A DNA stretch of 64,000 nucleotides from Sulfurospirillum cavolei (GCF_001548055.1 NZ_AP014724.1:1798001-1862000); one strand, 5' to 3'. Shown: positions 34,766-59,906, numbered from the stretch's first letter. The notes: generated from the letters alone by a model not told the origin. Made by a program: numbers and translations.

Positions 34766-34766
34766 G

Positions 34767-36749: not shown

Positions 36750-36759
36750 CGGATCTCCT

Positions 36760-38551: not shown

Positions 38552-38563
38552 AATGTCTTTCTC

Positions 38564-40665: not shown

Positions 40666-40769
40666 ATACTACTCCTTAAATAACCTTATTTAGACGTTTG
40701 AAAACCTAACATGTAAATAAGATTATATGCTGATGTCTTCGGTTTTACCTTGATACGCGTCAACGAATC

Positions 40770-40799
40770 CGCAAGCGAAAGCTTTTACTCTCGCTTGCG
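40770..40799 (-). promoter_or_regulatory. Stem-loop between nosZ and nosB
   Basis: CGCAAGCGA (40770-40778) and TCGCTTGCG (40791-40799) pair perfectly with a 12-base loop, 18 bases past the nosZ stop. No strong U-run follows. It is likely a partial terminator or a 3'-end stabiliser that keeps nosZ message more abundant than the downstream genes. Confidence 0.6.
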
Positions 40800-40816
40800 A
40801 AACGCATTACGCGCCG

Positions 40817-43417
40817 CTAAAATAAATTAGCGTTGCTGTCAACCCATTTCAAATACTCGATGATGTTTTTCACTTCTTCATCTTTCATATTTTGATTAGG
40901 CATCCTTAAGTTAAAGAAATCGATCATCGCTTTAACGTACGGCTCGTCAAATTTCGGTTTCGGATCTTTGATAAACTCGGCAACCCATTTCTCACCGTTT
41001 TCATGGCGTCCTAAAACACCCGTTAGATCAGGACCGGAGCTTACTTTACCGATGACGTGGCAACCGGAACATCCGCCTTCATTGAAAGCCGTTTCGCCTT
41101 TTGCCGCGGCAGGGCTTTGTTTGGTTGCAACAAATTTGACTAACAAATCTTTCGCACGAATACCGACATCTGCCGTTTTAACCATATACTGCCAGATCAT
41201 GTTTTCAAACAGAACCGCTTTTTCGAGGTCGCCTTCTTTAACGGCGGCATCGGATAGTTTTTTCTGCTCGGCGATTTTGCCGTATTGATCTAAGGCATCG
41301 TTCACGAGGTTTTTAACGACGTCGTGTTTTTCATAATGGTTGTCTTTCAAGAACTTCACGACGCTTTGAATAACGTCATCCGTCGCCTTGTTGGTCGCAA
41401 CCGTTTTATCGTACTCGGCTTTCAATTGCTCTTTTGACATCGATGCCATTTTAAGCTTTTGAACGCTGTCGTATTTTTTGTTAGGGTCTTTGACCATCAA
41501 ATAACCCATCATTTCAAGGTGTAACGCCGAACAAAATTCCGTACAGTAGTAAGGGAAGACGCCCTCCATATCCGCTTTGAATTTAATGCTGGAAGTTTTA
41601 CCCGGTTCAACCGATGCGTGAACATTGTAGTTATCGATCGTAAAACCGTGCGTTTCGTCTTCGGCTCTTTCAAGGTTCGTGACGTAGAACGTTACGTTAT
41701 CGCCTTTGTTGACGGTAATTCTCTCAGGATTGATGTGCGATCGAACCAAGGTTGCATAGACTTTAACGTCACTACCGTTTCGCTCGATTCTCTCTTGTCC
41801 CGCAAGGGTTTTACCTTCATGAACCGTATTCGTTCGCGTATTGGTTCCCATCTCGTATCGTACTTCGGGATTAAGTTTGCTTGCACGGATCGCAACAGCA
41901 TCGTGCGGCTCACCCAACGGAATCGGCATATCGACGAGCATATCCATTTTACCGCCGCGAATATCGATTAACTGATGATTTTGCGGGTGTAACGGACCGA
42001 CGTTGTTAAAGCGATCGATGGAAAGTTTGTTCAACGCAATAATATAATCGCCCTGAGGATCTGCCGTATTGCTCTCCATACCGCACAAGTGACCGATATT
42101 GTAGTGGACGTTCACGCGATCCAACACTTTTAAAGTCTTAAAGTTCCATTTTACGACTTGTGAATCGACGTACAAAGAAGTATAAATCTCGCCGTCAACG
42201 TTCGAATATTGGTTATGCAAAGGTCCAAGACCCAACTCGACTTGCCCGTGTAACGCTTTTTTCATATCTAAAATAGGAATACCGTAAGGATCTTTTCCGG
42301 CATACTCTTTATTTTTGATCAAGTTTTGAATCTTGGAAAAGCTGTAAACGGAAGCATGCGTATCTAATTTACCGCAAACAACGATATATTCGCCGGTTGG
42401 ATCAACGTCAACGCCGTGCGGAGATTTAGGCTCGGGAATCAAAAACAATGCATCGTTTTTGATCGCAATATCCATAGGAACGACGCGATGATTGTTAACG
42501 ATTTTGACGTTTTTAGGGTCTTTCGCCAACTCTGCAAGTTTTTGCCAATTATAGACATGTAAGTAGTCCGTATCGTTACGGCTCATACCCGCTTCGTTCG
42601 GCGGCATACCGACTTCGATACCGCCCGTATACATTTCGGAGTTAAACGAGTTGGTAAAACCCCAACCGTGGCTCACTTTTTTACCGGCATCGCTTAAGTC
42701 TTGCATGTAAGGCGGGAGTTCGATGGTGTAAGAGTCTTTTTCTTGGATACGTCCTTTCTTAGGGTCGAATTTCCACATCGTTACACCGCCGCGGTACGTC
42801 TCTTTATAGTCTTCGATCGGGTGGTAATCGTTGTCGAAAGGAGCCGCATATTGTGCCGCTTCGATAATCCATTCGGAATCTTGCGTAAAGAAAGAACCGC
42901 CGTGCTCAGATTTAAAGACGGGATTGACAACGATTTGTTTGGTTTCAAAATCGTGCAAATCGATGACTGCAATACGAGGGTTGGCTTTGTCGTTGACGAC
43001 CAACCATTTACCGTCGACTTTAGCATCCGTTTCGGAAAGCGAAGGGTGGTGCGTGTCGCCCCATGTAATATCTTTGCCTCGGATTTTTCCTTGAGCGAGG
43101 ACTTTTTTACTCTCCTCGTCAAATCCATATCCCTGCCAAGGTTCCGGAGTAAAGACGCCGATATACTTTAAAAGTCGCATCGACGGTACGCCGTACACCA
43201 TAATTTGCCCCGATTGACCGCCGGAACTAAAGACCAAGTACTTGTCATGGACTCCGGTCGGATTGTAGGTTTTAGCCGCACGAACGACGTCCGCTTCGCT
43301 TAAACCTTTTTCTTTCATAACCTTGTCCAAGGCACTTTCGGTCGCAGCAAACGAAACTGTCGCACCGAGAGCTCCGATAAGAGCAAGCGAAGAAAGAAGT
43401 TTAAAACCTTTTTCCAT
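40817..43417 (-). CDS. nosZ: Nitrous oxide reductase, clade II cNosZ with C-terminal cytochrome c
   Basis: 866 residues. A Sec-type signal (LSSLALIGALGATVSFA) rather than a Tat signal marks clade II. The seven-bladed propeller holds His ligands of the CuZ cluster (for example DTHHPS, SEHGG, PHGVD). The cupredoxin domain carries the CuA motif CTEFCSALHLEMM. A C-terminal domain with GGCSGCHVIG (about residue 770) is the fused monoheme cytochrome c of Epsilonproteobacterial cNosZ. It reduces N2O to N2 in the periplasm. AAAGGAGGTAATTT gives a very strong ribosome site. It is the first gene of the nos run. Confidence 0.97.
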   Translation of the reverse strand: MEKGFKLLSSLALIGALGATVSFAATESALDKVMKEKGLSEADVVRAAKTYNPTGVHDKYLVFSSGGQSGQIMVYGVPSMRLLKYIGVFTPEPWQGYGFDEESKKVLAQGKIRGKDITWGDTHHPSLSETDAKVDGKWLVVNDKANPRIAVIDLHDFETKQIVVNPVFKSEHGGSFFTQDSEWIIEAAQYAAPFDNDYHPIEDYKETYRGGVTMWKFDPKKGRIQEKDSYTIELPPYMQDLSDAGKKVSHGWGFTNSFNSEMYTGGIEVGMPPNEAGMSRNDTDYLHVYNWQKLAELAKDPKNVKIVNNHRVVPMDIAIKNDALFLIPEPKSPHGVDVDPTGEYIVVCGKLDTHASVYSFSKIQNLIKNKEYAGKDPYGIPILDMKKALHGQVELGLGPLHNQYSNVDGEIYTSLYVDSQVVKWNFKTLKVLDRVNVHYNIGHLCGMESNTADPQGDYIIALNKLSIDRFNNVGPLHPQNHQLIDIRGGKMDMLVDMPIPLGEPHDAVAIRASKLNPEVRYEMGTNTRTNTVHEGKTLAGQERIERNGSDVKVYATLVRSHINPERITVNKGDNVTFYVTNLERAEDETHGFTIDNYNVHASVEPGKTSSIKFKADMEGVFPYYCTEFCSALHLEMMGYLMVKDPNKKYDSVQKLKMASMSKEQLKAEYDKTVATNKATDDVIQSVVKFLKDNHYEKHDVVKNLVNDALDQYGKIAEQKKLSDAAVKEGDLEKAVLFENMIWQYMVKTADVGIRAKDLLVKFVATKQSPAAAKGETAFNEGGCSGCHVIGKVSSGPDLTGVLGRHENGEKWVAEFIKDPKPKFDEPYVKAMIDFFNLRMPNQNMKDEEVKNIIEYLKWVDSNANLF

Positions 43418-43457
43418 AAATTACCTCCTTTGTTGATGTTCATATTAAATCCTTTAC

Positions 43458-43474
43458 AATGACGAACGGTCATT
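43458..43474 (-). promoter_or_regulatory. 17-bp dyad in the nosZ leader region
   Basis: AATGAC and GTCATT flank a 5-base spacer, about 40-57 bases upstream of the nosZ ATG. A second 10-bp palindrome, GAGTTAACTC, lies at 43494-43503. The first has the size of a CRP/FNR-type operator and could be a binding site for a nitrosative-stress or oxygen regulator. Assignment is by shape only. Confidence 0.4.
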
Positions 43475-43600
43475 TAACAAAAATTTAATACTTGAGTTAA
43501 CTCTGAAAGTTTATACTATTGTCAGTTTCTTTTCAGTCGCTAATAAAAAATATAAAAAACAATGTTAATTATTTAAATATGTGTCAATTTAAGAATTAAC

Positions 43601-45247
43601 TTATTTTTTGGGCAGTTGAATGGAGAAAGTAGCTCCGTTTTCACGGTTATACGCGTTAATCAGACCGTGAAACTGGTTTTCGATAATCAGCTTTGACATG
43701 TAAAGACCAATCCCCGTAGAAGGTTTAATCTTGTTGCTGTGGAAAGGTTTAAAGATGTCGCCGATATGGGCTTCTTGTATGCCTCCCGCATTATCCGAGA
43801 TGCTGATAAAAACGTCTTTCTCGTCACATGTAAGCGTAATGTCGATATGCGGATGTTCGATAGGAAGGTTTTTAAAGATGTCGATACTGTTTTGGATAAT
43901 AGACAAAATGACTTGCGCTAAGCTATTGGAATTGCCGTAAACAGAACTACGTTCATCTAGAAGATTCTTCGTAACGTGAATCGCATTTTGCCGAATCGAA
44001 GAGTCTAGAAGGTTGAGTGCTTGAACGATGGAAACGTTCGGCGAAAAAAGCGTACTGTCGGTGTGTTTATAAAAATTTTCAAAGTTGGTAATCGTCTCGG
44101 ACATAAATTGAATAATCTCTTCGTTCTTTGCCGTCTCCTCGATAAGATCGGGATCTTTAAGTTTGTTGCGAATGTACATACAATTAAAACTAAGCTGCGC
44201 TAAAGGCTGTCTCCATTGATGGGCGATAATGGCGATCATCTCTCCAAGAGCCGCGAATTTAGACTGTTGCATCATAATTTTATCTTTGAGCGTCTCTTTG
44301 GAAATATCTTGAATACTGATGATAATTAAAACGGCACTGTGTTGCCCGCTGGTTGCGATGGAAAGGCGAATGGGAATTAAATCGCCGTTTTTATTGACGC
44401 CCTCGATGGTTTTAACCTCTTCTTTATTTTCGATGGCGAGAATGTCGCGAAGCGTTACTTTTCGCGTATCTTTCGTTAACATGTGCATATAGCGCATCGG
44501 AATCGCTTTATCGAAAAAGAGTTGATCAAGCATCTCTTCTTTGGTGTATCCGAAGATTTTTTCTGCCATTTGGTTAAATGTTTTAACCCTGAGTTGGTAA
44601 TTGAGTGTAATAATCGCGTTACTATTGGACTCAATAACGCTATTGGCGTAATCTTGCTGCCTGAAAATTTCCTGCGTAAACTCGATGATTTTTTTATTGG
44701 CGGGTCTAAAAATGAAAAGTGCTTCAAAAAGAAGCGTAATGAGCGTGAAAATAAAAATATAAAACTCTACGTTTTTGAGCTTAATCGTCGTCTCTTCGGT
44801 CGTTTTCACGTAAACGGCGGTCGCCAAATCTAAAGCTTCTAAGAGTTTTTGCGCATTTTGTAAGATATACGTAAGGCTTCGCCCGTCTCGGTTTTCTTCA
44901 AACCGTTTGGCATGAAACAGATACGCCTGAACGTTTTTATCCAATTTATACGGTTCGTCGAAATAGATTTTTTTCAATTCGTCCGTCATCGGAAACGAAA
45001 TGAGCAGTTGATGCGCCTCTTCCATCGCGGCGATATTGGTGCGAAGATTTTCCGTTTTATAGTAAATGGCGAATAAAGCGATTTGTTGCGAAAGCATTCC
45101 TTGTTTACTGCTGAGATTAATAATCTTTCCGTCGTTGGATTGGTTGCTGATAAGATGGTTCATATTGTAATAGGCAAGAACGGATAAACAGGCGATAATC
45201 AAAAGAGCTACGATGTATCTTCGCGTAAAACTAATCGTTTGAGTCAT
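43601..45247 (-). CDS. Histidine kinase with PilJ/NarX-like sensor and PAS domain
   Basis: 548 residues from ATG 45247 (GAAGG upstream; a TTG start 45 bases earlier is also open). TM1 at about 10-28, a periplasmic helical region beginning SSKQGMLSQQIA, like the P-box of NarX/PilJ sensors, and TM2 at about 165-185. A PAS domain follows (about 215-335, NSNAIITLNYQLRVK). The kinase core has H-box AHQWRQPLAQLSF, G-box SDNAGGI and GIGLYMSKLI. It is divergent from an OmpR-type regulator and next to nosZ, so it may report nitrate, nitrite or respiratory state. Confidence 0.85.
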   Translation of the reverse strand: MTQTISFTRRYIVALLIIACLSVLAYYNMNHLISNQSNDGKIINLSSKQGMLSQQIALFAIYYKTENLRTNIAAMEEAHQLLISFPMTDELKKIYFDEPYKLDKNVQAYLFHAKRFEENRDGRSLTYILQNAQKLLEALDLATAVYVKTTEETTIKLKNVEFYIFIFTLITLLFEALFIFRPANKKIIEFTQEIFRQQDYANSVIESNSNAIITLNYQLRVKTFNQMAEKIFGYTKEEMLDQLFFDKAIPMRYMHMLTKDTRKVTLRDILAIENKEEVKTIEGVNKNGDLIPIRLSIATSGQHSAVLIIISIQDISKETLKDKIMMQQSKFAALGEMIAIIAHQWRQPLAQLSFNCMYIRNKLKDPDLIEETAKNEEIIQFMSETITNFENFYKHTDSTLFSPNVSIVQALNLLDSSIRQNAIHVTKNLLDERSSVYGNSNSLAQVILSIIQNSIDIFKNLPIEHPHIDITLTCDEKDVFISISDNAGGIQEAHIGDIFKPFHSNKIKPSTGIGLYMSKLIIENQFHGLINAYNRENGATFSIQLPKK

Positions 45248-45374
45248 ACTAAAACCTTCATTTTTGAGAAAAACCGACGGGTTGTTCGTCAAATATTATA
45301 ACTATCTTTTTGATAAAATCGTGTTACAATTAAATCAAAAGCATCGAATCGCTTCGCCATAAGGAACGTTACAC

Positions 45375-46064
45375 ATGTTAGATAAACAAAAATTGGTCTT
45401 AAAAAACAGCTCTATTTTATTAGCCGAAGATGAAGAAAATCTCCGCAACAGTTTTAAAAAAGTTTTACTGCTTTACGTGAAAGAAGTCTTCACGGCATCC
45501 AACGGCGAAGAGGCATTTGAACTTTATCAAAACCATCGTCCCGACATCATCATTACCGATGTTAAGATGCCCAAACTCAACGGGTTGGAGCTCATCAAAA
45601 AGATACGTAAAGAAAATCAAGAAACGCCGATCATCGTGACAAGTGCTTATACGGATAAAGACTTATTGTTGGAATCAATTAAACTATCGTTGGTCGATTA
45701 TCTGGTTAAACCGATCAAAGAAAAAGATTTGATCGCGTTGTTGGAAATTAGTGCGGACGTTTTACTCCAAAAGGTCAAAACCGTTGTAACCATCGACGAA
45801 CGTAACACTTACGATTACCAAAATAAACAGTTAGTTCAAGACGCCCAAAAAATTAGCTTGACGCATAAAGAAGTCGAATTTTTAGAAATTTTATTGCAAC
45901 ACAAAGGCAATCTCGTGACGCGTCAAACCTTGGAAGACAAACTCTACGTTTATGAGGAGGCACCGCCTTCGGCTTTAAAAAATCTTGTCTTTAAACTACG
46001 CAAAAAAATAGGTAACGACGTTGTTCAAACCGTCGGAAACTTAGGATATACGATTAAAGATTAA
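45375..46064 (+). CDS. OmpR-family response regulator
   Basis: 229 residues. Receiver domain (about 12-125) with acidic pair AEDEEN, phosphoacceptor Asp in IIITDVKMPKLNG, Thr/Ser in IIVTSAYTD and Lys in YLVKPIKEKD. The winged-helix DNA-binding domain (about 145-229) is LTHKEVEFLEILLQHKG, LEDKLYVYEEA and TVGNLGYTIKD. Partner of the kinase at 43601-45247; the 127-base divergent space should hold both promoters. The HQWRQP type of kinase and this regulator type are common pairs in Campylobacterota. Confidence 0.9.
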   Translation: MLDKQKLVLKNSSILLAEDEENLRNSFKKVLLLYVKEVFTASNGEEAFELYQNHRPDIIITDVKMPKLNGLELIKKIRKENQETPIIVTSAYTDKDLLLESIKLSLVDYLVKPIKEKDLIALLEISADVLLQKVKTVVTIDERNTYDYQNKQLVQDAQKISLTHKEVEFLEILLQHKGNLVTRQTLEDKLYVYEEAPPSALKNLVFKLRKKIGNDVVQTVGNLGYTIKD

Positions 46065-46172
46065 GCTTTATCCTTAGGTGCTTAGCGACTCAAAAGAAAC
46101 TCGCTATAGTATAAAATGTCACTCTATGATGAAAAAAATATAAAACAAACAATCACATGGAGGAAATTAAGG

Positions 46173-46475
46173 ATGAAAAAGTTATCGACGGTTTTTCTAC
46201 TGCTCGTAGGAACATCGCTTGCACTCAATGCCGCTGAGGGAGAAGCTATTTATAAAAGCAAATGTTTTTCCTGTCACGGCGATAAAGCTTCCAAGGCGGC
46301 TTTAAATAAATCTCAAATTATCGCGGGATGGGATGCCGCTAAAATCATCGCATCGCTTAACGGATATAAAAACGGCGAAGGCGGCCCGATGAAAGGCGTT
46401 ATGAAACCGATCGCAAGTGCGCTTAGCGATGACGAGTTGAAAGCGGTTGCTTCGACGATCGCCTCTTACAAATAA
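46173..46475 (+). CDS. Small monoheme c-type cytochrome
   Basis: 100 residues from ATG 46173, with GGAGG upstream and a signal peptide (MKKLSTVFLLLVGTSLALNA). The mature part is a class I cytochrome c of about 80 residues: heme motif CFSCHGDKASK near its start and probable axial Met in GPMKGVMKPIA. It resembles the cytochrome c553 family of Campylobacterota. It precedes the bc-type complex and is a likely soluble carrier from that complex to NosZ or an oxidase. Confidence 0.88.
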   Translation: MKKLSTVFLLLVGTSLALNAAEGEAIYKSKCFSCHGDKASKAALNKSQIIAGWDAAKIIASLNGYKNGEGGPMKGVMKPIASALSDDELKAVASTIASYK

Positions 46476-46479
46476 GAAG

Positions 46480-46503
46480 ATTCGGTACATTGCGACCGAA
46501 TCT
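46480..46503 (+). terminator. Stem-loop after the cytochrome c gene
   Basis: GATTCGGT (46480-46487) and ACCGAATC (46496-46503) flank an 8-base loop just past the stop codon. The T-tract is short (TT), so termination may be weak. Confidence 0.55.
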
Positions 46504-46672
46504 TACCGCATGGTTGAAATTTTAAACCTAGCATTCGTTTAGGTTTCTTTCAAAACCGACTTTACCCACCAAAAGCACCGTAGGCGCGCTGGCTACCAAA
46601 AAGTTCAGCGTTAACATAGCGTAAAAGCTTTGCTTTACATGTAAGTTTATTTGATCAAGAAAGGAAAACAGG

Positions 46673-47179
46673 ATGGCTGTTGAAGAGAGCAGACGAGACT
46701 TTATCGGCATGGCATTCGGCGGTTTTGCAGCGGCAGGGGGCATTGTGGCTCTGGGCGCTATGAAGAAGACTTGGGATCCGCTTCCAAGCGTACAATCCGC
46801 CGGATTCATTACCGTTGATCTCTCTCCGATGAAAGAAGGAGAGGTACAAACGATACAATGGAGAGGGAAGCCGATTTTCATTTTGAAGAAAAGTGCGGAT
46901 ATGGCAAAGAACGAGAAACGAGACGTCATCGCAGGAGGGAGTAGCTACTCGGTGATGATCGGACTTTGTACGCACTTAGGCTGTATTCCGACGTGGACAC
47001 CCTCCACCAAACAGTTTAAATGCGCATGTCACGGCGGCGAATTTGACGCCAGCGGCGTCAACACGTTCGGACCGCCTCCTCGTCCAATGGATATTCCTCC
47101 CTTTAAAATCGACGGAACGAAACTCGTTCTCGGCGAAGAGGGACCGGAATATAAAAAAATGGTAGCTAAGAAAGCGTAA
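46673..47179 (+). CDS. petA: Rieske iron-sulfur subunit of the bc-type complex
   Basis: 168 residues. Twin-arginine-like signal/anchor (ESRRDFIGMAFGGFAAAGG). The Rieske cluster motifs are CTHLGCIP and CACHGGEFD, each supplying one Cys and one His, with the bridging Cys pair. It is part of the menaquinol:cytochrome c oxidoreductase, on the periplasmic side. First gene of petABC; AGGAAAACAGG precedes the ATG. Confidence 0.95.
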   Translation: MAVEESRRDFIGMAFGGFAAAGGIVALGAMKKTWDPLPSVQSAGFITVDLSPMKEGEVQTIQWRGKPIFILKKSADMAKNEKRDVIAGGSSYSVMIGLCTHLGCIPTWTPSTKQFKCACHGGEFDASGVNTFGPPPRPMDIPPFKIDGTKLVLGEEGPEYKKMVAKKA

Positions 47180-47190
47180 AGGAGAGACAC

Positions 47191-48447
47191 GTGGCAGAAA
47201 TAAAAAAAGCAACGGGCTTGATGGACTGGTTGGATCAGCGATTGGCGGTCAACGGATTTATCAAAGTGATGATGAGCGAGTATTGGATTCCTAAGAATAT
47301 CAATTTCTTATGGGCGATGGGTGTCGTCTTAATGAGCTTGTTCATGATTTTGATCGTATCGGGTATTTTTCTTTTGATGTATTACAAACCCGATATAAAA
47401 TTGGCGTTTGATAGCGTCAACTATACGATTATGCAAGAGGTCGAATACGGCTGGTTATGGAGACATATGCACGGCGTAGCGGCATCGGTTATTTTCTTAG
47501 TCATCTACATTCACATGTTTACGGGTATCTATTACGGCTCATACAAAAAAGGCCGTGAGATGATCTGGTTAACCGGTATGGCACTCTTTGGTATCTTCTC
47601 TGCCGAAGCGTTTAGCGGGTATATGCTTCCGTGGGGACAAATGAGTTACTGGGCGGCACAGGTTATTACCAATCTTTTCGGCGGCATTCCTTTTATCGGC
47701 GAAGCGTTGGTCATTTGGATTCGAGGCGATTTCTTGGTAGCGGATGCGACGTTAACACGCTTTTTTATGTTACATGTCCTTTTACTTCCGTTAGTGATTT
47801 TACTCTTAATCGCCGTTCACTTCTATGCGTTGCGCTTTCCGCATGTCAATAACCAAGACTCCGAAGAGTTTGATTTCGACAAAGAGGCTAAGAAATATTT
47901 GGAAGGTCGCAAAAAAGAGTCTAAAGTGGTTCCTTTTTGGCCGGTCTTTTTATCCAAAGACTTTTTTGTTGTCGGTATTGCCTTAACCGTCTTTTTCTAC
48001 TTGGTCTGTTTCCACTACGATTTTGCGATGGATCCGATCAACTTTGAACCGGCCAACAATATGAAAACGCCGGCACATATTTATCCGGAGTGGTATTTCT
48101 TGTGGAGTTATGAAGTGCTTCGCGGTTTCTTCTTTGATATCGGCGGTATTGCGGCAATGGATATCGGTTTAGCGGCGTTTGGATTTGCCAACGTTATTTT
48201 TATGCTGTTACCGTTTTTAGATCGCAATACGATGCATACGGCACCGGCGCACAAACGTCCGATGTTTTTCGTCTGGTTTTGGTTATTGTTAATCGATATG
48301 ATCGTTTTAACCGTTTACGGTAAGCTTCCTCCGACGGGGGCAAACGCTTGGGTAGGCTTTGGTGCAACCATCGTTTTCCTTGTTTTATTCGTCCTCCTTC
48401 CGATTATTACCAAAATTGAAGCCAAAAACGAAGGAGCCGAGTCATGA
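47191..48447 (+). CDS. petB: Cytochrome b subunit of the bc-type complex
   Basis: 418 residues: an N-terminal b6-like part with heme-ligand His residues in WLWRHMHGVAAS, YIHMFTG, LHVLLLP and AVHFYALRF, and the Qo-site motif PEWYFLWSYEVLR (the PEWY signature), then further TM helices. About eight or nine TM helices in all. Menaquinol oxidation and transmembrane electron transfer. The stop overlaps petC by 4 bp. Confidence 0.96.
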   Translation: MAEIKKATGLMDWLDQRLAVNGFIKVMMSEYWIPKNINFLWAMGVVLMSLFMILIVSGIFLLMYYKPDIKLAFDSVNYTIMQEVEYGWLWRHMHGVAASVIFLVIYIHMFTGIYYGSYKKGREMIWLTGMALFGIFSAEAFSGYMLPWGQMSYWAAQVITNLFGGIPFIGEALVIWIRGDFLVADATLTRFFMLHVLLLPLVILLLIAVHFYALRFPHVNNQDSEEFDFDKEAKKYLEGRKKESKVVPFWPVFLSKDFFVVGIALTVFFYLVCFHYDFAMDPINFEPANNMKTPAHIYPEWYFLWSYEVLRGFFFDIGGIAAMDIGLAAFGFANVIFMLLPFLDRNTMHTAPAHKRPMFFVWFWLLLIDMIVLTVYGKLPPTGANAWVGFGATIVFLVLFVLLPIITKIEAKNEGAES

Positions 48448-49295
48448 GAGAGTTGAAAATTTTAGTGGTGGTTCTTTTCTTTACTGCCGTTGTCTATTGG
48501 GGTGTCGAACCTTTCGCCCATTCTCAGATGCACCCTCACGTCGCCCCTGCCGATTTCAGTTTTAAGGATTTAGGGCATACGGTGGGTAAAGGCGATTTTA
48601 TCAAGGGTGAAGAATTGGTGCAAGCAAACTGTGTCGCCTGCCATTCCGTTAAATCCGTCGGCATTCAATCTGCCATGAGTGAGAGCGATGCATCGTTAGC
48701 GTACGGTGTCGTACCGCCCGATTTGAGCAATGCGGGCTTACTCTACGATCCGGCTTTCTTAAGCGCGTTTCTCAAAAATCCGGCAAAAGCAATGCTTGTT
48801 GAACACAAATTTGATCAAACAAGAACCTTTCCGATGCCTTCATACGACTGGATGAGCGAAGACGAGATCTCCTCTATTCTTGCTTTTTTTCATAGTATCG
48901 TCAAGCCGGTATCCGACAAAGCTTTATATGAAGAAGCCTGCGGCAGATGCCACGATATGAAATACGATAAAACGATGAGTCATTCGGATAAAGCGGCATT
49001 AACCGCGTATATGGGAACCTTGCCTCCGGATCTTTCGATTATGATTCGTGCAAAGAGCGACGAGTACCTTTCAACGTTCATCAACAATCCTCAAAAACAG
49101 TTAGCGGGTACGTCGATGCCGCGTGTAGGTTTAACCGAAAAAGCGCAAAATCAAGTGATCTCCTATATGGAGAAAGTCGGCGATCGTAAAAAAGCCGAAC
49201 GCGAAGACCTCGGTTATAAGTTAATCGCTTATATGGTACTTTTCACGCTTCTTGCGTTTGCTTGGAAAGTCAAAATCTGGAGAGAAGTGCACTAA
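48444..49295 (+). CDS. petC: Diheme cytochrome c subunit of the bc-type complex
   Basis: 283 residues: N-terminal membrane helix (about 5-22), heme motifs CVACHSVKSV and CGRCHDMKYD in two related c domains (each followed by a region like PPDLSNAGLLYD / PPDLSIMIRAK and a Met-rich strand, MPSYDWM / MPRVGL), and a C-terminal TM anchor (about 255-275). This diheme form replaces the usual cytochrome c1 in Epsilonproteobacteria. It passes electrons to soluble cytochromes such as the one at 46173-46475. Confidence 0.95.
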   Translation: MRELKILVVVLFFTAVVYWGVEPFAHSQMHPHVAPADFSFKDLGHTVGKGDFIKGEELVQANCVACHSVKSVGIQSAMSESDASLAYGVVPPDLSNAGLLYDPAFLSAFLKNPAKAMLVEHKFDQTRTFPMPSYDWMSEDEISSILAFFHSIVKPVSDKALYEEACGRCHDMKYDKTMSHSDKAALTAYMGTLPPDLSIMIRAKSDEYLSTFINNPQKQLAGTSMPRVGLTEKAQNQVISYMEKVGDRKKAEREDLGYKLIAYMVLFTLLAFAWKVKIWREVH

Positions 49296-49852: not shown

Positions 49853-50170
49853 TTAGCGTAGTCCCCAAAGGGCTAAAAGTACCCCGCAACTCGCCATCCA
49901 AACCGGAAAAGGGAAAATAAAAAAATGAAAAATCATCCCTTCATGCGGAAATGTCAACGCGTCAAAGAGTGTTTCTTTGGAAGATTTGATGCGGTAGATG
50001 AAATCATAAAGACCCAAAAGGGCGATTTCAAACCATGCTAAAAAAGACCCCAACGACTCGCCCACATAGCTTATCGCCAAAAATACGGTAATGAAAAAGA
50101 GCGGTAAAAACCACAAAGCCCATACATTTGCTATGCCAAAATAGTTCCAAAAATAAAAATAATTTTTCAT
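49853..50170 (-). CDS. Small membrane protein ending an unrecognised operon
   Basis: 105 residues with two or three hydrophobic segments (about 15-38, 42-60 and 82-103), no charged motif and no recognisable family. It starts four bases after the previous gene ends and is the last in the minus-strand unit beginning at 54363. Confidence 0.6.
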   Translation of the reverse strand: MKNYFYFWNYFGIANVWALWFLPLFFITVFLAISYVGESLGSFLAWFEIALLGLYDFIYRIKSSKETLFDALTFPHEGMIFHFFIFPFPVWMASCGVLLALWGLR

Positions 50171-50174
50171 CGTA

Positions 50175-50756
50175 TCACGCCTTATGCGTATAGGTATACA
50201 TCTGAAAGGCTTTCACGGCTTCTTCCAAGGCCTCTTTATCACATAAGGGCTCTTCGCCTCTTAAATACGCCATCGTAAAAACATGGCGATTTTCTTCACA
50301 CCACGTCGCTTCTATTTTATACCCTTTTTTGGAAACAGGGCTGTGGGAATCGACATAGCCTTCTTTGACTTCGCATCGTTGAGAGGGCGAAAAGTGAAAT
50401 ATCTCCGCATCAATGACGCGTCCGTTGACGTGCAACGTATAGCGAGCGATACCCTTGTCTGCTATAGCATAAAGGCTTACATGTAAGAATGAACGCACCA
50501 ACATAAACGTTGCGAGTAAGAAACCGCTAAAAAACAAAGCGATGATACCATGCCACACATTGTGCGTTTGCCACGTGCTGTACGCCATCACAAGTGCTAT
50601 AAAAGAGCCGAAAAGTAAAAAAACAAGCACGCCTATGCGCGTCATGATTTCTTTGAAAAATTGTTTTTTAACGTCTATGGGCTGAATATACAGAGGCTTT
50701 CCCAAATTGTGGGGTAGTTTGATGACATAACGTTTTAAAAAGTCGTGTGAGGTCAT
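50175..50756 (-). CDS. Membrane protein with cytoplasmic tail, unknown function
   Basis: 193 residues: two TM helices (about 38-60 and 68-90), then a soluble domain of about 95 residues (YAIADKGIARYTLHVNGRVIDAE..., CEVKEGYVDSHS). The last base of its start region overlaps the AAA ATPase stop. Part of the unidentified operon; no family recognised. Confidence 0.62.
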   Translation of the reverse strand: MTSHDFLKRYVIKLPHNLGKPLYIQPIDVKKQFFKEIMTRIGVLVFLLFGSFIALVMAYSTWQTHNVWHGIIALFFSGFLLATFMLVRSFLHVSLYAIADKGIARYTLHVNGRVIDAEIFHFSPSQRCEVKEGYVDSHSPVSKKGYKIEATWCEENRHVFTMAYLRGEEPLCDKEALEEAVKAFQMYTYTHKA

Positions 50757-51715
50757 TACACAAAGCCCATTTTTTTAGGTTTCTTGCCGAGCGTTTCTGA
50801 CATGTAAAGGGCTAATTCATCGTAAATGCCGTTTTCATTGGCGTATTCGACGACATTTTTCGCGGCACTAAACCACTCCAACGTCGTTGCTTTGGTACGG
50901 TGTATCTCTTCTTTGAGTGCATCTTGGTCGATGGTGAGCTCTTCGCCACTTTCTAAAATTTCCTCGATGATCGCTTCACTCACCCTATCCACCACGCCTT
51001 TGATATCTGCCCCCGAAAAATCAACGCTCATCTTGGCTAAAGCGTTATAGTCAAGTGGTTCTATCGGCAATTCTTGCAAGTAAAGTTTGAAAATAGCTTC
51101 ACGTGCTTTTTCATCGGGCGGCGGGATAAAAAAGATTCTATCAAACCGTCCGGTACGCCTAAAAGCACTGTCCACGTCCCACGGTGCATTGGTCGCGCCG
51201 ATGATGAGGATGTTTTCATTGTCGCTTTCCACTCCGTCCATTTGGGCTAAAAAAGCGTTGATGGTAGAGGTCATATTGGTATGACGAAGCAGTTCTCTCT
51301 TTCGTCCAAGCGCGTCGATCTCGTCGATGAAAATGACGCACGGGCGATGGGTACGAGCAGTCTCAAAGAGTGCTTTGATATTTTTTTCGCTGTTTCCCAC
51401 GTACATATCTAAGATTTGCTCTATTCCGATGTTGTAAAATGTGGCACCGCACTCTCCGGCGATGGCGCGCGCAAAGTAGCTTTTTCCGCATCCGGGTGCG
51501 CCGTAAAGCAAAATGCCTCCGCCCGCACTTTTTTTAAATTTCTTAAACAATTCGGGATTTTTAAAGGGTTGGATGATTTTCATAGAGGCTTGCTTTTTGA
51601 GCTCCTCCAAACCGCCGATAGCATCAAACGTGATTTTGTATTTTACATGTAAAGGCTCAAACACACTCATGCCAGCCTCTTCCTCATTGACTCTGTTTTT
51701 TAACGGTTCATCCAT
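50756..51715 (-). CDS. AAA+ ATPase (classical AAA, single domain)
   Basis: 319 residues: residues 30-45 read like the N-terminal linker of FtsH/CDC48-type AAA (FDAIGGLEELKKQA). Walker A is GAPGCGKSYFARA, Walker B is CVIFIDEIDALG, followed by sensor and arginine-finger regions (ATNAPWDVDSAFRRTGRFDR) and a C-terminal lid (SGADIKGVVDRVS). No protease domain and no TM segment. It is small and soluble, so it probably remodels a partner encoded nearby (TPR or membrane proteins). It overlaps the TPR gene by 16 bp. Confidence 0.9.
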   Translation of the reverse strand: MDEPLKNRVNEEEAGMSVFEPLHVKYKITFDAIGGLEELKKQASMKIIQPFKNPELFKKFKKSAGGGILLYGAPGCGKSYFARAIAGECGATFYNIGIEQILDMYVGNSEKNIKALFETARTHRPCVIFIDEIDALGRKRELLRHTNMTSTINAFLAQMDGVESDNENILIIGATNAPWDVDSAFRRTGRFDRIFFIPPPDEKAREAIFKLYLQELPIEPLDYNALAKMSVDFSGADIKGVVDRVSEAIIEEILESGEELTIDQDALKEEIHRTKATTLEWFSAAKNVVEYANENGIYDELALYMSETLGKKPKKMGFV

Positions 51716-52671
51716 CGTTTCCCTTTATGGATTATTTCTTCTATTTTAGCAAAAATGAGTCCTAAAATTTGCCCGCCGATACGCCCCATAACGTAGTACA
51801 TTGCCGCACCCAAAAGCGTGACGTACCATTCATGCCACGCCACATTACCCAGCAGAGCAAAACAGAGTACAAAAAACGGAAGACTTAAGCGCCAATCGCG
51901 CCAAACATACAAGGAGAGAAGAAGTAAGACGCCTGAAGTATGAGGACTCTTTTCCCACATTTCAAAGTGTTCGCCTAAGGCGTACAGCAAAAAAGCCAGC
52001 ATCAAAGCAGGGGCAAGTGCGTAATAGCGTTTGATACTCTCCAAATTCTCTTTACCCTCCCCGTCGAAAGGGTTACGCACTAAAATCTTGCGAAGAACGT
52101 TGCTTTTTTCAAAAAGATGAGACGTACCCAGCATTGAGTACAGATGCAGTGCTCCGGCATGATGCGGATCGCTCGCAAGGATAGCCGTAACGATTTCACA
52201 CGCGATGGGCGTATTGCCCAAATGATACGTAATGATGGCAAGGGTGAGCAAAAAATCAACATTGTGCGCATCCAATGCCAAAGCTTTATCGATAGCGCGT
52301 TTAGCTTCAACATAACGGGAAAGTTCTACCAAAACCTGCGCATGAAGATGATGGTACGCACCGTGGTTGGGCTCATGAAAAAGCAGTTCTTTGACACACG
52401 ACAATGCCTCTTTAAGACGGTCTTGTTTAAACAAAACAAACGCGTGAAAATAAAGAAAATGCACCTCTAAGGGAAACTGTTCCAACGCTTGGGCGATGGC
52501 TTCAAGTGCTTCATCCAAACGCTCCAACGCGATAAACGCCAAAACCGTATAGTGATACGCACTCATGCTCTCTTCATCATGGGAAGCACACAAAGGAATA
52601 CTGACATGTAAAAGTTCTTCGTAGCGTTTCAGCTCGTACAAAACGTCCAGTCGTTTGGCGATGTCACTCAC
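51700..52671 (-). CDS. TPR protein with C-terminal membrane region
   Basis: 323 residues starting at GTG 52671. Residues about 1-210 are six or so tetratricopeptide repeats (YHYTVLAFIALERLDEALEAI, HHLHAQVLVELSRYVEAKRAI, LLTLAIITYHLGNTPIACEIV). Residues about 215-300 contain three hydrophobic segments. Overlaps the upstream membrane-protein gene by 8 bp and the AAA gene by 16 bp. Likely the scaffold of the unit; function unknown. Confidence 0.75.
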   Translation of the reverse strand: MSDIAKRLDVLYELKRYEELLHVSIPLCASHDEESMSAYHYTVLAFIALERLDEALEAIAQALEQFPLEVHFLYFHAFVLFKQDRLKEALSCVKELLFHEPNHGAYHHLHAQVLVELSRYVEAKRAIDKALALDAHNVDFLLTLAIITYHLGNTPIACEIVTAILASDPHHAGALHLYSMLGTSHLFEKSNVLRKILVRNPFDGEGKENLESIKRYYALAPALMLAFLLYALGEHFEMWEKSPHTSGVLLLLSLYVWRDWRLSLPFFVLCFALLGNVAWHEWYVTLLGAAMYYVMGRIGGQILGLIFAKIEEIIHKGKRWMNR

Positions 52672-53023
52672 GGTTTATCCTTGTAAATGCGACGCAATTA
52701 GGGCATTTGTATGCGATGGAAGCTAAAAAGAATGCAAAACAAAGCGGCGAGGCAAGAGGGTATTGAACGCATCCTAAAAAGCCCAAAAGAGCGATGAGTA
52801 CGATCACGACGTATTTTTGTGTCGGCATATGGTAACGCATCTCGAAGCGATACGCGAACCACAGCGTCAATGCTACGGTCAGCATTGTAACGACATTTTT
52901 GAGCCACAAGACACTCAGACCTTTGTCTTGAAGCAAGAGCGAAAATACCATGCCGTATAGAAACCCTAACCACCCGCAATACAAAACAATGCTGAGAAAT
53001 TTTAAAACATAATGTCGTTTCAT
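52664..53023 (-). CDS. Small membrane protein with a CxxC tail
   Basis: 119 residues from ATG 53023, whose ATGA overlaps the stop of the beta-propeller gene. Three or four TM segments (about 6-25, 34-52, 64-90) and a C-terminal YKCPNCVAF motif, so a pair of Cys faces one side of the membrane. No family recognised; part of the unidentified operon. Confidence 0.65.
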   Translation of the reverse strand: MKRHYVLKFLSIVLYCGWLGFLYGMVFSLLLQDKGLSVLWLKNVVTMLTVALTLWFAYRFEMRYHMPTQKYVVIVLIALLGFLGCVQYPLASPLCFAFFLASIAYKCPNCVAFTRINRE

Positions 53024-54363
53024 TTGCCCTCTTCTTTTGGGTTCACATTCCACACATACACATGACCGTCGTCGAGCGTGTAGAGCTTTTCGTCGCTGAT
53101 CTCAAAATCCATAACCTCGTTCGCTTCTCCTTGAAAATCGTGCGTTATTTTTTTGCGTTTGAGATCATATCTATACAGATGCGGTGAATCCAGCTCTTGC
53201 GTCAACAAAACGGTATCGTTCCAGACACGTATGCGATACACCCTATTTTTTGGGATATTCGGCAACGATGCAAGCGCATGCAAAGTTTTCGTATCGTACA
53301 ACACGAGTCCGTGTCTATCGGTTCCAACCGCTAAAGTCTGCTTGTCGTACAACGCTAAAGCGAGCACGTCATAAGCATCTTGAACATTCGTATCTCGCAA
53401 GGTTGTGATAAACGAGCTTTCCTTGGGCGAAGAGCCAAGCGCATACACTTGAACTTCGCCCAAATCGTTGGCAACAAAAAGCGTGTTATCGGTGTAGAGC
53501 ACGTCAAAAATACGATCAAAGCGTTTGTCTTCCAGCGTTTCATAGCCTTTGAAACGCTGTTTTTTTGTATCGAGGCTCTTTACATGTACGTTATGGTGAT
53601 AGATTTCCACAATGCCGCCTTTGCCGAAGCGAAACAAGTACGCGCCAAAACCTCTTAAGCGATTGAGCTCTTTTGCAGACGTTGCAAGCTCTTTGGGGGC
53701 TTCTGTGAGAAGCTTTTTTGTTTCCCAAAAGAGGACTTTGCCGTTTTTTGAGGCAACGTATAAATAGCCTTGGTGCAAGAGTATATCCCTATCGAAAGAG
53801 TCTGAATCTTGAGCATTAAGAAGCATCTCATGAACGAAAGCAAGTGTTTTTTTATCGTAGATTTCTAAGTATTCCGCATCGCTTGGCTCACGCTTTTGCG
53901 TGCTGTACACTTTGGAGCGAGATTGACTCAAGACATAGATAAAACGCTCATCCGTTGCCATTTTTGAAGCGAGGCGGTGCTTGAGTTGCACGCTTTGTAA
54001 AAGTCCGTTTTGTTTGGCAAGAAGTGCTCTTTTAAGCCGGGGTTGAAGTGTGTCTTTGCTTATGCGTATCGGCTCATAGGGTTTATATTTAAACTCCCGC
54101 TCTGCGTAATACTCATGCGTCGCGTTGATCTCTTTGTATACGACCAATTTATGAAACCCAAAACCACCCGTACCGACATCCTCTTTTATGCCCAGTTTTA
54201 AAATGCCTCCTTGCGTCGTTATTCCTCGAGGTTTGTCATCGATGCTGACATGTAGTCCCTCGATGTCGCTTTGAAGATGAAGCGTACGATCGGTCGCTAC
54301 GACGCTCTCTTGCGCCCACGCCGATACGGCCAAAAAACAAATACTCCCTAACATAGCTCTCAT
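53020..54363 (-). CDS. Exported beta-propeller (WD40/PQQ-like) protein
   Basis: 447 residues with a signal peptide (MLGSICFLAVSAWAQ). An N-terminal beta region (about 20-100) is followed by repeated strands of propeller type (RFIYVLSQSRSKVY, GYLYVASKNGKVLFWETKK, DNTLFVANDLGEVQVYAL, QTLAVGTDRHGLVLYDTKT, KLYTLDDGHVYVWNV). First gene of the unit running to 49853. It should lie in the periplasm. I could not place it in a named family; NapL was considered, but length and context differ. Confidence 0.75.
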   Translation of the reverse strand: MRAMLGSICFLAVSAWAQESVVATDRTLHLQSDIEGLHVSIDDKPRGITTQGGILKLGIKEDVGTGGFGFHKLVVYKEINATHEYYAEREFKYKPYEPIRISKDTLQPRLKRALLAKQNGLLQSVQLKHRLASKMATDERFIYVLSQSRSKVYSTQKREPSDAEYLEIYDKKTLAFVHEMLLNAQDSDSFDRDILLHQGYLYVASKNGKVLFWETKKLLTEAPKELATSAKELNRLRGFGAYLFRFGKGGIVEIYHHNVHVKSLDTKKQRFKGYETLEDKRFDRIFDVLYTDNTLFVANDLGEVQVYALGSSPKESSFITTLRDTNVQDAYDVLALALYDKQTLAVGTDRHGLVLYDTKTLHALASLPNIPKNRVYRIRVWNDTVLLTQELDSPHLYRYDLKRKKITHDFQGEANEVMDFEISDEKLYTLDDGHVYVWNVNPKEEGK

Positions 54364-54550: not shown

Positions 54551-55657
54551 TTATTTTTTATTCACTTCTTTTTTTAAAATCTCATACGCTTTGGAACTAT
54601 ACTCTTTTCCTGTCGCATCTATTAGTATTACTTTACCATTACGTTTAACTTCATATAAGCCATTTGCAATATTAGGGTAAAACTTAAAAATGTCATTGAA
54701 CTTTTCTTGTGTAACTATTTCACCTTTTGCGTTGATAAATACCCATTTATTATTCACTTCCACTTCCGCAAAACCATTAGATTTAAAATGCCCAGCATAT
54801 TTAAATGATGCTGGAATGATTACTTTACCCTGCTCATTCACATATCCATACAAATAGTCCCGTTTATCACCGTCTCCAACGGCATCAATTCCAACACATG
54901 CTAATCCATTTGATGTAAACATTTCTGCCGTATCGAATTTTGCGGGAATAACCATTTCACCTTTAGTATTAATGTAACCGTATTTTGATTCATATGTTCT
55001 GACTTGAACGGCAGCCAATCCGTTGGAACCAAAATCGGCGGCATGATCGAATTTTGCGGGAATAACCATTTCTCCTTTGCTATTGATATAACCGTATTTT
55101 GAGTCATTTGTGACGACAACGGCTAAACCGTTCGCCGCAAAAGGATATGCAAACCTAAATGTCGCAGGAATGACCATTTCCCCTTGCGCATTGATATAGC
55201 CGTACTTGTCAATTTTTTTCACTAAAGCCAAACCGTTCGGTGCAAAATCGCTTGCTTCTTCAAAATTGCTTTTCATGGCCAATTTTCCGGTAGTGAAACT
55301 ATCTTTATCGATATAACCATATCGCTCTTCGAGTTTTATTTTTGCCAAACCGTTAAGCGCGAAATCATACATGCCATACTTACCATCAAGTGTAAAAGGC
55401 GTCGCTGCTTCTCCTTTCGCATTAATAAATCCATATTTGCTGCTGAATTTTTCAACTCTTACTGCGGCTAATCCATTTTGTGAAAAATGATGCGCATAAT
55501 AAAATATTTTTCCACCAAATACGGGCTCTCCTTTTGAGTTGACATAAACACACGTACCATCCAAACAAAGCGGTTTGGGGAAAGACTCTTCGGCAACTAT
55601 CAAAGACGCACTACCGAGCAATGCTATTACTACCATTAAGTGAAACAATTTTTTCAT
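54551..55657 (-). CDS. WG-repeat protein with signal peptide
   Basis: 368 residues: signal peptide (about 1-21), then about eight WG/KWG-type repeats of the form KYGYINAQGEMVIPATFRFAxPFAANGLAVV. These repeats are very similar (for instance around residues 150-250), suggesting internal duplication. WG proteins fold as beta-solenoid-like units and often bind partners or ligands, but the function here is unknown. It stands alone, with 187 bp before the next unit. Confidence 0.85.
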   Translation of the reverse strand: MKKLFHLMVVIALLGSASLIVAEESFPKPLCLDGTCVYVNSKGEPVFGGKIFYYAHHFSQNGLAAVRVEKFSSKYGFINAKGEAATPFTLDGKYGMYDFALNGLAKIKLEERYGYIDKDSFTTGKLAMKSNFEEASDFAPNGLALVKKIDKYGYINAQGEMVIPATFRFAYPFAANGLAVVVTNDSKYGYINSKGEMVIPAKFDHAADFGSNGLAAVQVRTYESKYGYINTKGEMVIPAKFDTAEMFTSNGLACVGIDAVGDGDKRDYLYGYVNEQGKVIIPASFKYAGHFKSNGFAEVEVNNKWVFINAKGEIVTQEKFNDIFKFYPNIANGLYEVKRNGKVILIDATGKEYSSKAYEILKKEVNKK

Positions 55658-57465: not shown

Positions 57466-58046
57466 AGATCGTCAAGACCCTTGTCTATCCTTCCTCAATT
57501 TGGCATCTTCGCCCTTCTTAATGTCTGACATGTACATGGGATAAACCAACGATTGGGTTAGAAGGACGAGTGTCGGCAAATATTTTTTAAGACTATCATA
57601 AATAATCTTTAGAGATCGTAAACATTGAAGCTACGCATGCATCAAAGTGCATCATAAAACGTCTTTGGTGTGAAGACACCCGACTCTCAAAACAGGTTGA
57701 TTTTCAGGAAGTTTTACAAAGATGTTCGCAGAAGGCTAGCGCCCTCGTCTCCTTGAATGCTCGATCATTTACGCATTGCGGTCTTTTGTGTTTTCTTACA
57801 TGTAAAGCTTTTGGATTCCTTTGTAACCAATTTATTTCACTTCATTGCCCCTCTTTATTTCAGCACACGCCACCCTTTGATTCTTTACATGTAAAGGTTT
57901 TTAGTTCGAAAAAGATTGACATGTAAAGAAAGTTAAAAGGTTAGACCTGACCCCTTAGTTTTACACAAGTTTAGCCTATGATTATGGCACTATAGTGACA
58001 CTAAATATTTTAAAAGGTACAATAATACAAAAAATTAGGTTTGTAT
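57466..58046. other. Non-coding spacer with clustered TTACATGTAA words
   Basis: No gene of credible length in about 580 bases. It holds TTACATGTAA at 57796-57805 and 57885-57894, an ACATGTAAAGAAAGTTA block at 57919-57935, the left inverted repeat of the next gene (57929-57958), and an AT-rich leader directly before the diguanylate cyclase. Confidence 0.6.
57929..57958 (+). repeat. Left terminal inverted repeat of a putative cassette
   Basis: The block AAAGTTAAAAG followed by CTGACCCCTTA matches, in inverted orientation, 60006-60036 (shared AAAGTTAAAAG and CTGACCCC). The two flank the AT-rich diguanylate cyclase gene. GGGGTCAGxxC-type ends are common in small repeated sequences of bacteria. 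Confidence 0.6.
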
Positions 58047-59906
58047 ATGACAAATAAAAATTTTAAATTCATGTTTTTTACATATTTTGTAATTTTTGGT
58101 ATTTTGGTTGCATTTTTTGGTTCTTTTGTTGGTTATAACATGAATCTTATTGATATCAAAAAAAATATTGATAAAGCTTCACAAGAAGTTGGATTAATAA
58201 AAAAATTTGATTATTTAAAACCAGATATAGAAAAATTTGATGAAATAGTTAAAGCATTGTCTACTAATACCTCATTGGAAGAGTATATTACATCGCCTGA
58301 TAAGCAAAAAAGAAATAATTTAACGAATGTTTTTTATGCAATTTCTATGTCAAATAATTTTATTATGCAAGCTCGATTTATTAGTGAAGAAGGAAAAGAA
58401 ATAATTCGAGTTGATAGAAAAAATAAATATGACAAGCCTTTTATAGTTGAAGAATCAAGTTTACAAGATAAAAGTCAAAGAGATTATTTTCAAATTGTAA
58501 GTCATATGAAAGAAGCAAAAATATGGCACTCCCGTATTGATCTTAATATTGAAAATGGGAAAATAGAAGTTCCTTATAAACCAACATTTAGAGTAGCTCA
58601 ACCTATTATAAAAGATAATAAATTTGTTGGCATGGTTATTGTTAATTTACTTGCATCTGAAATGATTAGTGGCTTAAAAAAATCAACAAGTTTTGATCAT
58701 TTTATTATTGATAAAGATGGTTATTTTATTACACATCCAAATGATGAATATTCATGGTCACGGTATACAAATTCTAGTATTAGATTGTATGATGAATTCC
58801 CATTAGAAGCAGAAAAGATACTTGCAGGGGAAAATAAAGGTGAGACTTTTTATAGTTTTCAGTTAAATGATATATTAGATAATGAAGATAAAGCTATCTT
58901 GATTTTAAAACCAAAAATTGCCTATCAGAGTACATTATTTTCATCTAATATCAAAACGAGTATTTTAATAATTTTACTTAGTATTTTAGTTAGTATCCCT
59001 TTAGCATTTTTTGCTTCAATTGCTCCATCGAAACTTCAAAAATCTTTGCTTTTAGCAAATCAGGAATTAAGAAAGTTTGCGGATATTATTGACAACTATG
59101 TCATTACAGCTACAACAAAAACAAATAGTGTTATTACATCTGTCAGTACAGCGTTTGCAAAAAGATATGGTTATTCAAAAAAAGAATTAATAGGTCAAAA
59201 AATGAATATTATCCGTCATTCTGAGACTTCAAATAATTTATATTCAGAGCTTTGGGAAACAATTGAAGCTGGAAAAAACTGGCAAGGTGAATTAAAAAAT
59301 CTTAGTAAAGATGGAAATACGTATTATTTGGAACAAAACATTATTCCTATGAAAGATGAGAATAATAGAATTATTTCTTATATGGCTATTGGTAATGATA
59401 TAACAGCTAAGAAAGAAGTTGAGCGCTTATCTGAAATAGATAAACTTACGGGAATTTATAATCGAAGAAAACTTGATGAATACATGGAAAGTGAACTCAA
59501 TAGAGCAAAACGTTATCATCAACCTTTATCATTTATGATCCTTGATATTGATCATTTTAAAAATATAAATGATACATACGGTCATCCTGTTGGTGATTCT
59601 ACATTACAGACTTTAGCAAAAATATTAACTGATAATTTACGGAAAAGTGATATTCTTGGACGTTATGGTGGTGAAGAGTTTTTAATTATTTGTCCTGAGA
59701 CAGATAATAATCAAACAGCTTTACTTGCTGAAAAGTTAAGAGCTTGTGTAGAAAATACTCTCTTTAATGATATTAAAAATATGACTATCAGTATAGGTGT
59801 CGCAGAATTTGAAGGTGAAAATACAGTTAAAGAGTTATTTTCACGTGCTGATAAAGCACTTTATCAAGCAAAACATAATGGTCGAAATCGTGTAGTCGTA
59901 GGATAA
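58047..59906 (+). CDS. Diguanylate cyclase: Cache sensor, PAS and GGDEF
   Basis: 619 residues from ATG 58047 (a TTG 6 bases earlier is also open). TM1 at about 8-28, a periplasmic Cache-like domain (about 40-290, with FRVAQPIIKDNKFVGMVIVNL and FIIDKDGYFITHPN), TM2 at about 300-325, PAS (about 345-455, RHSETSNNLYSELWETI) and GGDEF (about 460-619) with the signature RYGGEEFLI and an upstream RKSD inhibitory site. It is an active-type cyclase that could raise c-di-GMP for the LapD-like receptor. Base composition is far more AT-rich than neighbours and it is flanked by inverted repeats, so recent acquisition is likely. Confidence 0.92.
   Translation: MTNKNFKFMFFTYFVIFGILVAFFGSFVGYNMNLIDIKKNIDKASQEVGLIKKFDYLKPDIEKFDEIVKALSTNTSLEEYITSPDKQKRNNLTNVFYAISMSNNFIMQARFISEEGKEIIRVDRKNKYDKPFIVEESSLQDKSQRDYFQIVSHMKEAKIWHSRIDLNIENGKIEVPYKPTFRVAQPIIKDNKFVGMVIVNLLASEMISGLKKSTSFDHFIIDKDGYFITHPNDEYSWSRYTNSSIRLYDEFPLEAEKILAGENKGETFYSFQLNDILDNEDKAILILKPKIAYQSTLFSSNIKTSILIILLSILVSIPLAFFASIAPSKLQKSLLLANQELRKFADIIDNYVITATTKTNSVITSVSTAFAKRYGYSKKELIGQKMNIIRHSETSNNLYSELWETIEAGKNWQGELKNLSKDGNTYYLEQNIIPMKDENNRIISYMAIGNDITAKKEVERLSEIDKLTGIYNRRKLDEYMESELNRAKRYHQPLSFMILDIDHFKNINDTYGHPVGDSTLQTLAKILTDNLRKSDILGRYGGEEFLIICPETDNNQTALLAEKLRACVENTLFNDIKNMTISIGVAEFEGENTVKELFSRADKALYQAKHNGRNRVVVG

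Follow-up and report, generated by a model that had tools for sequence, protein, structure and literature searches.

A conserved AAA ATPase and TPR-membrane protein pair in an operon of Sulfurospirillum cavolei, a candidate membrane-tethered segregase

Introduction

The clearance and remodelling of inner-membrane proteins in bacteria is mostly discussed in terms of FtsH. An operon of Sulfurospirillum cavolei that combines a AAA ATPase with a TPR protein and several small membrane proteins raises the question of what these genes do, and of whether all of them belong together. A reading of the sequence alone had treated six genes as one operon whose products could form a membrane-spanning remodelling machine. 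A literature search turned up no relevant account of a named AAA/TPR system from Sulfurospirillum or of Msp1 in bacteria. The locus was analysed within a 64-kb stretch of DNA (the window) of the host genome, which is a single contig of 2.70 Mb.

Gene content of the operon

As the sequence-only reading had proposed, the operon consists of six consecutive ORFs with overlapping junctions; they lie on the minus strand (54363-49853) in the order g1-g2-g3-g4-g5-g6. An ATGA overlap of 4 nt joins g1 and g2, the overlaps of g2/g3 and g3/g4 are 8 nt and 16 nt, g4 and g5 share 1 nt (TAATG), and g5 and g6 are separated by 4 nt. The contents claimed by that reading were borne out by Pfam and hydropathy: g1 is propeller-like with a signal peptide, g3 combines TPRs with a membrane part, g4 carries a single AAA domain, and g2, g5 and g6 are membrane proteins. 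For g2, the ATG at 53023 (119 aa) is most likely preferable to the GTG at 53053, because relatives start there. The WG-repeat gene at 55657-54551 (g0) travels with these genes, and the operon is best redrawn to include it at the upstream end.

54551-55657, minus strand: g0, WG-repeat protein with a Sec-type signal (Pfam WG_beta_rep 9e-62, 8 stretches)
53020-54363, minus strand: g1, exported beta-propeller-like protein with an N-terminal signal peptide (weak WD40-type Pfam matches)
52664-53023, minus strand: g2, 119-aa polytopic membrane protein with YxCxxC at its end (homologue alignment)
51700-52671, minus strand: g3, core protein, TPR scaffold whose C-terminal part forms membrane helices (Pfam TPR_19 5e-15; AlphaFold2 pLDDT 89)
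52075-52665, minus strand: g3 residues 3-199, six TPR motifs (AlphaFold2 model m633826273d25; Foldseek matches to TPR superhelices)
51706-52062, minus strand: g3 residues 204-322, C-terminal membrane domain (hydrophobic helices in the model, hydropathy)
50756-51715, minus strand: g4, single-domain classical AAA ATPase of 319 aa, core (Pfam AAA 7e-42)
51479-51502, minus strand: g4 Walker A, GAPGCGKS (invariant core in the 43-member alignment)
51395-51406, minus strand: g4 pore-loop-1 position, MYVG (sequence and alignment)
51320-51337, minus strand: g4 Walker B, VIFIDE (D131 and E132 invariant in the 43-member alignment)
50816-50890, minus strand: g4 C-terminal signature of the family, [ST]T..W...A.N...yAN..G.YD (all 43 aligned members keep W281 and Y298)
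50175-50756, minus strand: g5, two membrane helices and a C-terminal beta domain, possibly PH-like, optional part (model pLDDT 81)
49853-50170, minus strand: g6, 105-aa membrane protein (no homologue in the fetched loci)

When compared with the nearest operon holder (G002), the genes gave dN/dS values of 0.18 (WG), 0.15 (g1), 0.17 (g2), 0.14 (g3), 0.06 (g4) and 0.17 (g5). Therefore, the WG gene and g1-g5 are real, functional genes under purifying selection, and the g4 AAA is the most constrained of them. Consensus scans for promoters and terminators performed no better than shuffles.

By ORF reading, the adjoining part of the window (31141-49295) looks like a nitrous-oxide reductase (nos) cluster and a bc complex. 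The host genome contains three genes that resemble the cytochrome c1 of the window, one of them 77% identical to the window copy. At 58041-59906, near a ParA-like gene, lies a 621-aa ORF which is possibly recent foreign DNA, because its GC content is 27% against about 41-47% in its surroundings.

The conserved core pair

The AlphaFold2 model of g3 (pLDDT 89) contains 12 TPR helices followed by 4 further, partly hydrophobic helices. About four membrane helices were counted in g3 by hydropathy and in a single model; the relatives of g3 have up to six. When GTDB species genomes were scanned with the AAA, relatives of g4 were found in Gammaproteobacteria, Geobacter, Verrucomicrobia, Planctomycetes, Flavobacteria, Myxococcota, Actinobacteria, Chloroflexi and Binatia, covering about ten phyla. 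A same-strand gene encoding TPRs and C-terminal membrane helices adjoins the AAA gene, upstream or downstream, in about 73 of the 80 loci, as counted by eye. Of the seven exceptions, three end at a contig edge; in the locus L067 the partner is one small ORF away.

A single-consensus TPR model was too insensitive, and a Pfam scan of the partners was used instead. TPRs were detected at E<0.01 in 53/53 proteins, window g3 and four proteins from actinobacterial plasmids included. The annotation of these plasmid pairs goes no further than 'ATP-binding protein' or 'AAA family ATPase' for the one gene and 'tetratricopeptide repeat protein' or 'hypothetical protein' for its neighbour. Evolutionary distances of the AAA and of its partner correlated with r=0.79 over 37 pairs (permuted maximum 0.16), a value to which common host ancestry contributes. 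The recurrence of a TPR-membrane neighbour across phyla and in both gene orders would not be expected by chance. The g3-g4 pair is thus the strongly conserved core of the operon.

The dyads of the relatives stand alone in varied surroundings, and several adjoin housekeeping genes. In several flavobacteria (L071, L073, L074, L082) the dyad is flanked by two genes for small polytopic membrane proteins that look rhomboid-like by eye; in L076 these two genes adjoin each other. In other loci the dyad has other neighbours, as if it were mobile. In Rubritalea (Verrucomicrobiota; L069, 100-6654), three consecutive TPR-membrane paralogues are followed by one AAA of the family and then by a second AAA protein of 552 aa.

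The AAA family and its TPR-less clade

Walker A, Walker B, the arginine-finger region and the pore-loop position are kept in all 43 aligned members of the g4 family, to which the Verrucomicrobia relatives L068, L069 and L087 also belong. A loose form of the C-terminal motif is absent from 29 paralogue loci. The closest solved relatives of g4 are Cdc48/p97, with the D2 domain as the matching part, and window g4 stays below the curated cut-off of every NCBIfam model. No protease domain was found by Pfam in g4 or in the TPR partners.

In most phyla the AAA protein carries an N-terminal TPR of its own, with a TPR_19 match in 27 of 43 members. Window g4 has about 25 residues ahead of the AAA module and falls, together with all Campylobacterota and Gammaproteobacteria members tested, into a clade of TPR-less AAA proteins (SH-aLRT 86). 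The TPR-AAA of Geobacter is the neighbour of this clade in the tree (support 97), the root of which is unsure because FtsH is its sole and distant outgroup. The simplest reading of these sequences is that the N-terminal TPR was lost once in the clade of the window. Two metagenome-assembled genome records titled Klebsiella pneumoniae and Bifidobacterium breve (L092, L097) hold AAA sequences that group with Myxococcota relatives in the tree, and are probably mislabelled.

The CxxC membrane protein

The sequence-only reading had noticed a CxxC motif in one of the small membrane proteins; this is g2, which ends in YxCxxC. Residues P67, K70, Y105, C107 and C110 are kept in 10/10 homologues from Campylobacterota and Gammaproteobacteria, and in the homologue loci g2 is found directly upstream of the TPR gene. 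Most members of the TPR-less AAA clade also carry g2. A contiguous g2-g3-g4 triad exists in Campylobacterota and in Thiomicrospira, Nitrincola and Marinospirillum. The CxxC pair probably faces the cytoplasm, as it would if g2 has an even number of helices.

The loci L061 and L177 have no g2 and encode a six-helix membrane domain; the idea that g2 is a piece split off from it was rejected, as profile comparison gave no similarity. In Nitrincola (L065, 1029-7270), four similar genes stand in a row just upstream of the triad, and a scan of one of them identified a Ser/Thr protein kinase (Pfam Pkinase 3e-29).

Distribution and accessory genes

A g4 orthologue (at least 80% identity) is present in 5 of 24 genomes of the genus, host included, and a g4 match at E<1e-55 was obtained in 5 of 397 genomes sampled across Campylobacterota. 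The gene order is WG-g1-g2-g3-g4-g5 in G002, which has no g6, and g2-g3-g4-g1-WG in G018. Three further genomes (G007, G010, G208) have only g2-g3-g4 at the locus, and G400 has g3-g4. The surroundings differ among these six genomes, and within Campylobacterota the core is found as a unit at unrelated sites. The operon was probably acquired horizontally, because it is rare (5/397) and its core stands in differing surroundings. A degraded copy was seen in G003 (L057, contig C161, 112-715), with g2 in two pieces and a g3 fragment containing a stop codon; the same contig holds a piece of cytochrome c1 resembling the neighbour gene in the window.

Conservation of all six genes as a unit, which that reading had put up for checking, did not hold: distant relatives share only the core, plus g2, and plus g5 once. 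Scattering of the genes in other genomes, which had been named as grounds for giving up the proposal, was found for g5, but neither for g3-g4 nor for g2 within its clade. The unit consists of the core pair g3-g4, a clade-specific third member g2, and variable accessories.

Among the accessories, the WG gene has a homologue next to the operon in G002 (74%) and another in G018, where it follows g1. Homologues of g1 were found only in these two genomes, in both within this operon, so that the propeller occurs in three genomes of the genus, and in all three g1 and WG accompany the core. No significant solved relative was obtained for g1; g1 and WG both carry Sec-type signals in their sequences and are taken to be periplasmic.

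The g5 model (pLDDT 81, six sequences) shows 2 long membrane helices, 6 long strands in a beta domain and a C-terminal helix. PH domains appear among its fold matches, none of them significant (E>=0.07), and g5 was not accepted as a certain PH domain. The gene is present in five genomes of the genus; in three of them it lies apart from the AAA or occurs where an AAA orthologue is absent altogether. Marinospirillum also has a g5 homologue, some 6 kb away from its core genes, in a cluster that holds a PEGA-domain protein and a 314-aa protein shared with Thiomicrospira (36%). A 236-aa gene of Thiomicrospira was rejected as a g5 homologue on comparison. For g6, no homologue was detected in any fetched locus, the nearest holder G002 included, where a convergent crp-like gene directly follows g5. 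The WG gene is an accessory part of the unit, and g6 is not part of it.

Discussion

A pair of this kind has been mentioned before. Ravi et al. (mSystems 2024, PMC11237479) describe in one sentence a bacterial 'VPS4-like' AAA+ ATPase encoded next to a gene whose product has 'TPRs and a 6TM domain', with ACB74714.1 as the one example accession cited for it. The claim that no part of the operon was recognised therefore has to be narrowed: such a pair is mentioned, while that sentence gives it neither a name nor an assigned function. The two descriptions agree in a classical AAA gene adjoining a gene for TPRs and a multi-helix membrane part in several bacterial lineages, an arrangement that g3-g4 shows. 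They differ in that the AAA of the window lacks TPRs and is accompanied by the CxxC protein g2 and by exported proteins, features on which the sentence about this pair is silent. The present analysis adds how large and coherent the family is, and describes its C-terminal signature, a TPR-less clade that carries a CxxC subunit, and the exported accessories.

Among known AAA proteins, g4 resembles the D2 domain of Cdc48/p97 most, which provides its top-scoring solved relatives and NCBIfam model and shares its Walker, sensor and pore-loop pattern. However, g4 has one AAA domain, no N domain and its own C-terminal W...YD motif, and scores 193 of 803 bits. FtsH is likewise a classical AAA of the bacterial inner membrane, whereas g4 (319 aa, AAA only) has neither a zinc metalloprotease nor a transmembrane segment and does not belong to FtsH; elsewhere the host genome has another gene for a paralogue of FtsH length (653 aa frame). 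Msp1/ATAD1, and Pex1-Pex6 with its membrane receptors, are membrane AAAs that pull membrane or membrane-associated proteins. In the present core the membrane anchor is a separate TPR protein, and the comparison concerns the way of working. By this analogy, the core would work like a membrane AAA dislocase.

With moderate confidence, we propose that the operon encodes a membrane-tethered AAA unfoldase or segregase that has no protease of its own, because an AAA with threading residues and no protease is joined to a conserved membrane TPR partner. Judged from its family, g4 would form a hexameric ring and thread protein through its pore using ATP. g3 would be its dedicated inner-membrane partner, whose cytoplasmic TPRs may bind clients or the AAA and whose C-terminal helices may hold the complex on the membrane, and g2 may be an added membrane subunit contributing its invariant CxxC pair. 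The complex would extract, unfold or disassemble inner-membrane proteins or their complexes; the client could also be soluble or polymeric rather than a membrane protein. The exported propeller, the WG-repeat protein and the two-helix g5 of Sulfurospirillum would be accessories, probably for substrate or envelope specificity. The remodelling machine suggested by the sequence-only reading thus remains the best reading in a reduced form, since the AAA and the TPR-membrane protein form a strongly conserved core pair, whereas the whole set of six does not stay together as one unit.

A doubtful but possible alternative is that only g3-g4 (and g2) act together, and that the propeller, WG, g5 and g6 have separate jobs and were carried along in a region gained by horizontal transfer. 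The restriction of g1/WG to three genomes, the occurrence of g5 alone in others and the confinement of g6 to the host genome fit this picture, which is harder to reconcile with the overlapping reading frames, with g1 and WG that are reordered after the AAA in G018 yet still accompany the core, and with the g5 homologue near the core in Marinospirillum. It concerns the accessories only and is compatible with the core of the segregase proposal. The operon is unlikely to be a bacterial Vps4-type system, in which the AAA disassembles a membrane-bound polymer and the TPR-membrane protein stands in place of archaeal ESCRT-III, as the sentence in PMC11237479 implies. The architecture does match the pair called VPS4-like there, and the CdvC model of NCBIfam matches g4 at 166 of 650 bits, below its cut-off, but the Cdc48, FtsH and PAN models outscore it. 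Moreover, an ESCRT survey (PMC10936438) defines Vps4 by an N-terminal MIT domain or by ESCRT neighbours, and holds that no ESCRT homologues can be identified in bacteria. Pfam gave no match of MIT or Vps4_C in window g4 (Vps4_C is sub-threshold in the Geobacter relative, 19.0 versus 21.3 bits), the operon contains no ESCRT genes, and no PspA_IM30 family member was found in the host genome.

An anti-phage or conflict system appears quite improbable. It would suit the patchy distribution and varying location of the operon, and the IetA profile of the IetAS defence system matches g4. However, what g4 shares with IetA is the AAA domain: the match reaches 113.6 of 510 bits, far below the cut-off, and no IetS-like protease gene is adjacent in the operon. 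Within the window set, PADLOC matches nothing but the AAA protein, by its fold, and a defence system was rejected on this ground. The solo dyads of the relatives, several beside housekeeping genes, also speak against this role. A phage origin was rejected too, as phage records give at most FtsH-level similarity to the AAA.

Returning to the segregase proposal, its wider form is put forward more tentatively: a widespread bacterial membrane-protein segregase may consist of an AAA motor and a dedicated inner-membrane TPR receptor, working without protease, ubiquitin or ESCRT-III, and one clade may have added a CxxC membrane subunit through which redox state or metal could control it, together with sensors exported to the outside. 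The AAA/TPR core is found in flavobacteria, mycobacteria, streptomycetes, verrucomicrobia and others, and a core of two or three genes in culturable hosts makes the question testable. If true, bacteria would possess a counterpart of Msp1, Pex1/6 or Cdc48 at a membrane, in the form of an AAA that acts without proteolysis and has a membrane-bound TPR receptor of its own.
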